A stretch of DNA of 64,000 bases from Haloplanus salinus (GTDB taxonomy: Archaea; Halobacteriota; Halobacteria; Halobacteriales; Haloferacaceae), in contig NZ_QPHM01000001.1 of the NCBI RefSeq assembly GCF_003336245.1, positions 1,178,001-1,242,000 of the forward strand, given 5' to 3'. Of this stretch, positions 51 to 1,083 are shown piece by piece. Position numbers and translations under genes: made by a program. Position 1 is the first letter of the stretch. The number at the start of each line of letters is the position of its first letter. The notes under the pieces were generated by a model, which made no database searches, had not been told where the DNA came from, and saw only the letters and a program-made list of their open reading frames with translations.

Positions 51-299
51 ATGTCGAACTTGGAACTCTACGAACTCTCCGGGTGTCCCTACTGCGCGAA
101 GGTAAAGACCAAACTCGACGAACTCGGGCTGGAGTACGTCTCCCACGAAGTGCCGCGCTCGCACTCCGAGCGGACGGAGGTGGAGGACGTGAGCGGGCAG
201 ACGGGCGTCCCCGTCCTGGTCGACCCGGATCACGACGTCGAAGGGATGCCCGAGAGCGACGACATCGTCGCGTATCTGGACGAGACGTACGGCGCCTAG
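51..299 (+). CDS. Glutaredoxin/GST-N-like thiol oxidoreductase
   Basis: An 82-residue thioredoxin-fold protein of glutaredoxin size. The active-site motif CPYC is at residues 12-15, followed by the TGVPVL cis-proline segment that closes the thiol site in glutaredoxins and GST N-terminal domains. It probably reduces disulfides or mixed thiols in the cytoplasm. Haloarchaea use gamma-glutamylcysteine rather than glutathione, so the physiological thiol is inferred, not shown. The ATG at 51 gives the usual short beta strand before CPYC. It converges on the cupin gene across a structured repeat. The 50 bases before it contain no gene I can identify. Confidence 0.85.
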   Translation: MSNLELYELSGCPYCAKVKTKLDELGLEYVSHEVPRSHSERTEVEDVSGQTGVPVLVDPDHDVEGMPESDDIVAYLDETYGA

Positions 300-330
300 G
301 ACGGCACTGATTAGAGTAGCGCAATTGGAT

Positions 331-640
331 TGTGAACACCTCGAAAGCCCCCGGCGTCTCGGCTCCCAGGACTCGCTGCGCTCCTCACTCCGTTGCGGTG
401 CTTACTTCGTCCGGGCACGCCGGGACGCCGGCCCCTTTCAGTCCCGCCCGCATCGGCTGGCCGACCGGCCGCCGGGCGGGACTGAAAGGGGCGACTCGCT
501 GGAGGAAGGCGGGCGACGTAAGCACGCGAGCGAAGCGAGCGCGCGCAGCGAGGTTCGCGCACGGCTCCGCCGTGCGCGTGTCCGAGGCGGCTTTGCCGCC
601 TCGCTACCCCCGACTCCAGCGAGGCGGGGCTTTCGAGGTG
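331..640. repeat. Foldback / MITE-like inverted-repeat element
   Basis: This non-coding stretch is built of nested inverted repeats. The outer arms CACCTCGAAAGCCCC (337-351) and GGGGCTTTCGAGGTG (626-640) are perfect 15-bp complements, and both outer flanks read TGTGAA when oriented inward. Inside lie matched pairs at 372-381/543-552, 398-405/518-525, and a perfect 20-bp pair at 431-450/473-492. The right half also holds tight hairpins at 556-565/569-578 and 584-591/595-602. No transposase is present. It could be a miniature inverted-repeat transposable element or a structured RNA; no second copy was seen in this window. Confidence 0.6.
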
Positions 641-1083
641 GTTACAGTTTCACAGGTGTATCTCAACACTATTCCTAGGACTCCTCGACGACGTACGACC
701 CGAAGTCGTCGCCTCCCGACCGGCGGCGCGCCGACGGCCAGCCGGACGTGGGTCTCGTCGGAGTGATTGACCAGACTGCGGACCGTCTCCGGGGCGACGC
801 GGGCGACGCCGCCGGCGGGCACGTCGTGGACCTCGCCGGCGAGCGATAGCTGGCCGCCGTCCATCGAGACGAACACCTCCTCCTGTCCCTCGTGGAAGTG
901 GGGCGTCGTCACCTCGCCCGGCTCGACGACGACCTGATTCACCCGGAGTTCGGTCGCCCCGAGCGGCTCCGTCAGCTTCCGGACCGCCGTCTCACACGTG
1001 TCGAACTGGTCGGCCGGTACGTCGGCGGGGTGGACGATACTGTAGCCGTCCGTCGTGGGCGAGGCGTCGCTGCGGGCGCGCAA
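604..1083 (-). CDS. Cupin domain protein, probable 3' frameshift
   Basis: A single cupin barrel with the metal-binding HFHEGQEEVF motif and the usual glycine turns; the substrate is unknown. The start is a TTG at 1083, 13 nt after the upstream regulator stops, so the two are probably cotranscribed. The family-like reading holds through AVGAPPVG, then turns into an arginine-rich tail. Shifting frame by one base near 714 restores GGDDFGSYVVEES and a TAG at 675-677, a far more natural cupin end. As written, the frame instead runs into the repeat element to 604. This is either a natural frameshift or a base-call error. Confidence 0.7.
   Translation of the reverse strand: MRARSDASPTTDGYSIVHPADVPADQFDTCETAVRKLTEPLGATELRVNQVVVEPGEVTTPHFHEGQEEVFVSMDGGQLSLAGEVHDVPAGGVARVAPETVRSLVNHSDETHVRLAVGAPPVGRRRLRVVRRRGVLGIVLRYTCETVTTSKAPPRWSRG

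Follow-up and report, generated by a model that had tools for sequence, protein, structure and literature searches.

Here we asked whether a foldback segment lying between two convergent genes of Haloplanus salinus is a mobile repeat or a fixed structure such as an RNA gene or a terminator. The window (the whole stretch of DNA that was analysed, 64,000 nucleotides in length) had been the subject of a preliminary description made from the sequence alone, which presented the segment as a near-palindrome of roughly 300 bp, read it as a MITE or foldback element and left a structured RNA as the alternative.

Extent and architecture of the foldback element

The arms reported earlier were all recovered, that is the perfect 20-bp inner arms (431-450/473-492) and the outer arms (331-351/626-646), 15 bp of which are perfect at 337-351/626-640. 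Because these arms are subterminal, with the transposon ends further out, we delimited the element at window positions 303-673, a full extent of 371 bp; the end positions shifted outward once all seven copies in the genome had been lined up. The foldback is thus real, and only the size first given to it was too small. Folded as single-stranded DNA, the segment reached -126.6 kcal/mol as compared with -83.4 +/- 4 kcal/mol for dinucleotide shuffles (z = -10.8), and none of the 100 shuffles was equally stable. The features of the locus are the following:

51-299, plus strand: glutaredoxin-like gene adjoining the element, with its stop codon inside the left duplication
295-302: left target-site duplication CCTAGGAC, an exact 8-bp direct repeat with 674-681
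303-319, plus strand: terminal inverted repeat A GGCACTGATTAGAGTAG, an IS6-type end with 2 mismatches to GGYACTGTTTAGATTAG
337-450, minus strand: hairpin module of type 1 (match to the R1 model, 122.4 bits, E = 1.3e-18)
451-472: spacer of 22 nt separating the two head-to-head modules, read from the sequence
473-640, plus strand: hairpin module of type 2, split by the twin-hairpin insert and recognised by the module motifs and the stem GACTCGCTGGAG/CTCCAGCGAGGC
554-606: twin-hairpin insert of 53 bp (hairpins at 556-578 and 583-603)
657-673, minus strand: terminal inverted repeat B AATAGTGTTGAGATACA, reading inward on this strand and aligned with the B ends GGTAGTGTTGAGATAAG of the other copies
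674-681: right target-site duplication CCTAGGAC, an exact 8-bp repeat

Both halves of the element are the same module of about 114 nt (this being the conserved part as seen in other genera) placed head-to-head, and the whole DNA therefore folds back on itself. The module consists, in this order, of GGGTGGGACTGAAAGGGGC, one strand of a stem that varies, an interior GACGCAAGCACCGC...GAGGAGCGCAGCGAG that is conserved, the second stem strand and GGGGCTTTC. The two tight hairpins noticed previously on one side of the palindrome correspond to the 53-bp twin-hairpin insert, which L012, L013 and L050 lack, their modules being uninterrupted; other copies have comparable inserts at different sites. In L002, L004, L006, L010 and L052 twin-hairpin inserts of about 51-62 bp were seen at several different positions within the modules.

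The setting between convergent genes was as described, with the glutaredoxin-like gene (plus strand) on one flank and a cupin gene (minus strand) on the other. The glutaredoxin-like gene has its stop codon within the target duplication and was therefore not disrupted by the insertion. In comparison with sister species, the cupin gene (window 604-1083, minus strand) appears to have lost 2 bp near 711-715; its frame, shifted in this way, does not end in the target site but continues for about 23 codons within the element. The apparent frameshift may be a sequencing error. In agreement with the earlier account, no open reading frame for a transposase of about 211 aa was found inside the 371-bp element, which is too short for one.

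Mobility of the element and its relationship to IS6 insertion sequences

Searching the whole genome yielded seven copies of the element, the window copy included, and the earlier statement that there was no second copy hence holds for the window but not for the genome, which has six more. Exact target duplications of 8-9 bp flank four of the seven (8 bp at the window copy, 9 bp at two), those of the other copies being GGCGAGCG, ATTACCAGG and GTCGGCGTC; of the remaining three copies, one is flanked by a 7-bp match and two lack an exact duplication. When the joined flanks of six loci were used as queries, all six were contiguous without the element in sister Haloplanus species, and the window locus was empty in G002, G003, G007 and G009, the empty site in sister genomes carrying a single copy of the CCTAGGAC target. 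Multiple copies, target duplications and clean empty sites thus bear out the interpretation as a MITE or foldback element. The strong fold of the segment, its intergenic position and the conserved pairing of the modules would also agree with a fixed structure that does not move, either a structured RNA gene or a bidirectional terminator between two convergent genes. The exact target duplication, the absence of the element from at least four sister species and the occurrence of seven copies in settings unrelated to one another, some of them not between convergent genes, speak against this explanation, which the empty sites refute for the window locus and to which we give very little credence.

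The ends GGYACTGTTTAGATTAG and GGTAGTGTTGAGATAAG turned out to match the two ends of full-length insertion sequences of 697-698 bp present in sister genomes, and terminal inverted repeat A has the end type of these full-length IS6 copies. Four such copies (L070, L078, L079 and L089) have the same asymmetric ends together with exact 8-bp duplications, and therefore the full-length element that the preliminary description had proposed to look for does exist. Assignment to the IS6 family was tested on the L070 protein, a transposase that scored 206 bits on the NCBIfam IS6 model NF033587 (cut-off 125) and matched Pfam DDE_Tnp_IS240. IS6-family elements duplicate 8 bp of their target, and ISfinder lists two IS6 MITEs (PMC7986276, PMC6807381), with lengths of 227 and 336 bp (PMC7986276) and the names MITEHarch3 and MITEBth2 (PMC6807381). 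Because the window element shares IS6-type ends and 8-bp duplications with full-length IS6 copies, and is itself short and transposase-free, we conclude with high confidence that it is a non-autonomous IS6-family MITE carrying two head-to-head hairpin modules. It is like MITEHarch3 and MITEBth2 in being non-autonomous, in having IS6 ends and in lacking a transposase, and differs from them, in a comparison of descriptions only, by its length of 371 bp and its nested twin-hairpin insert. The haloarchaeal IS6 elements of clades Ai-Aiii (PMC7986276) share with the MITE the 8-bp duplication, the GG...TGTT tips and the asymmetric ends, but carry an IS6 transposase of about 211 aa where the MITE carries hairpin modules only.

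An IS6-family DDE transposase would recognise the terminal inverted repeats of the element in trans and insert it mostly into intergenic DNA, duplicating 8 bp of the target, and this movement may proceed by cointegrate formation and resolution or otherwise. The orientation of the core with respect to the ends is divided 6:6 among distinct copies, with one further copy having two A ends; such flipping in about half of the copies points to recombination between the inverted arms. An ends-only copy of 64 bp with its own duplication was found in G003 (L069). Present mobility in H. salinus is doubtful, because this genome has a single IS6 copy whose ends match, with a transposase interrupted by three in-frame stops, and because the two intact IS6 genes examined there have different ends. 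An intact cognate IS6 transposase is found in sister species.

REP/BIME elements with RAYT are dispersed intergenic palindromes that are often paired, and the modules are alike in all of this. They differ in their length of about 114 nt, their conserved internal loops and the absence of a link to a Y1 transposase. An origin as an IS605-derived PATE, or as a REP element that depends for its movement on a Y1 (RAYT/IS200) transposase, would be in line with the subterminal palindromes and with the abundance of PATEs in haloarchaea (PMC3119063). PATEs, however, have neither terminal inverted repeats nor target duplications, and since the window copy has both, its membership in this class was rejected. 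No TnpB motif was found near the modules in 1.04 Mb, the numbers of Y1 transposases and of modules were unrelated (Spearman 0.01) and Y1 transposases were absent from five of the six genomes richest in modules, the richest genomes in this comparison having at least about 62 modules. An IS605/PATE or REP-RAYT origin is therefore not supported, and we practically discount it. The PATEs and SMRs of Haloquadratum resemble the MITE in being palindromic or inverted-ended, transposase-free, numerous and mutually nested (PMC3119063); in contrast to the window element, with its duplications and IS6 ends, PATEs there lack inverted ends and duplications, and SMRs have no duplications and ends that match no known transposon (PMC3119063).

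Distribution and pairing of the hairpin module

Covariance-model matches to the module were obtained in 43 of 60 haloarchaeal relatives, the highest numbers of copies per genome being 84 in G024 and 88 in G059, often without IS6 ends. A pattern scan of GTDB genomes returned at least 120 stretches, all haloarchaeal by title among the matches listed. The module was also present in 74 plasmid records, and in all six plasmid records inspected (L107-L112) a gene annotated as a DNA-binding protein, replication factor A or OB-fold protein lies nearby on the 5' side of the module in divergent orientation; in some of them another gene lies in between. Most of these plasmid copies, which come from haloarchaeal plasmids of several genera, are preceded by a conserved leader GGTCGGTCGCGAGCGACGCGGAGGGCGG. 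Plasmid phalar01 of DL31 has two modules, IS6 MITE status being established for neither. Phage records gave one chance match among 50,697 and no halovirus match, and the PATE of HRTV-DL1 (PMC10544981) was considered as a relative and rejected; the exact core pattern had no match in viral contigs. A text search of papers for the core sequence returned unrelated matches only, and no earlier description of the module was found in it.

The stems differ in sequence between copies and retain their pairing. In 35 modules the consensus structure comprised 29 pairs, 23 of them with two-sided compensatory changes, and 95.9% of the cells were paired as opposed to 75.6% in shuffles and 30-45% with the partners slid. 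Extending the analysis to 119 modules, in an alignment that was fitted to the model and leans towards it, gave 95.5% paired and two-sided changes at 25 of the 29 pairs (0/500 shuffles). On the module strand, with the outermost pair excluded, G:U outnumbered A:C by 95 to 23, an uneven excess in that two columns contribute 52 of the 95 and the count by column is 12 to 8. The interior motifs are conserved across the class and conserved internal loops interrupt the stems. In the modules of the Haloplanus MITEs the stems are mostly still paired through compensatory changes; in the window copy, each of the two stems contains a single broken pair. No Rfam family reached its curated gathering score in 18 loci, the window giving weak matches far below it, and membership in an Rfam family was rejected.

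The repeat of G024 is about 250 nt long, with a second structured domain upstream of the module, and 19 copies within this genome showed compensatory changes in 34 of 62 predicted pairs. Around solo copies of G024 no target duplications beyond chance were detected. At one solo locus the repeat is present in G024, G066 and G075 but missing from several congeners, and at a locus that G075 shares with G024 (L327) the loop of the module is inverted within its stem in G075.

Nature of the cargo

IS6 ends surround modules in a few other genera, for example in Halonotius (L188), and also in the MAG QH_7_66_36 (L236), there with an exact 8-bp duplication; in most other genera no recognisable IS6 ends were found around module pairs. 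The head-to-head pair could be a foldback that spreads by itself and that gained IS6 ends at a later stage, in Haloplanus and a small number of other genera. This possibility we take seriously without favouring it. Haloarcula, Halohasta, Natronococcus and others have pairs with spacers of 16-26 nt and similar outer arm sequences without recognisable IS6 ends, and the solo copies of G024 are present or absent at the same locus among congeners. Against it, neither a transposase partner nor a target duplication was found for the forms without IS6 ends; moreover, it is compatible with IS6 mobility of the window copy and does not compete with it. A different doubt concerns the compensatory changes, which might be neutral, with template switching at the DNA level keeping the hairpins perfect and no selection for RNA structure. 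The loop inversion, the 6:6 core inversions, the near-perfect twin-hairpin inserts and the 3' tandem tails are what such a process might leave, but the class-wide interior motifs, the conserved internal loops within the stems and the excess of G:U over A:C on one strand argue against it, and we find it rather unlikely. Loop and core inversions together with the twin-hairpin inserts nonetheless show that processes at the DNA level are active, and the inversion at L327 fits poorly with a function strictly at the RNA level.

We infer that selection acts on the module as a single folded strand, the likelier candidate being a transcript. Tentatively, we propose that the module may represent an undescribed, class-wide family of structured nucleic acids of haloarchaea, probably a non-coding RNA, with a two-domain full form of about 250 nt in one genus (84 module copies in one genome), and that it may spread in several guises, one of them a head-to-head dimer captured between IS6 ends. 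The structured RNA offered as an alternative at the outset may accordingly hold in part, for the cargo: instead of a single-copy locus with compensatory changes we found a multicopy mobile element whose cargo conserves its pairing. An IS6 MITE is a known kind of element, and what sets this one apart is its cargo, a module found in numerous intergenic regions across many haloarchaeal genomes, with pairing that persists as the stem sequences change. As an RNA, the module would constitute a very numerous archaeal structured RNA family without an Rfam entry; as a DNA structure, it would exemplify hairpins that replication or transposition maintains in many copies. Whether it is RNA or DNA can be tested with the covariance model and the genomes given here.

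Tandem tails that repeat the 3' end GAGCGGCTGGGGCTTCGGTGG, with related spacers, were observed in addition at L264, L266, L273 and L327 in the genus of G024.
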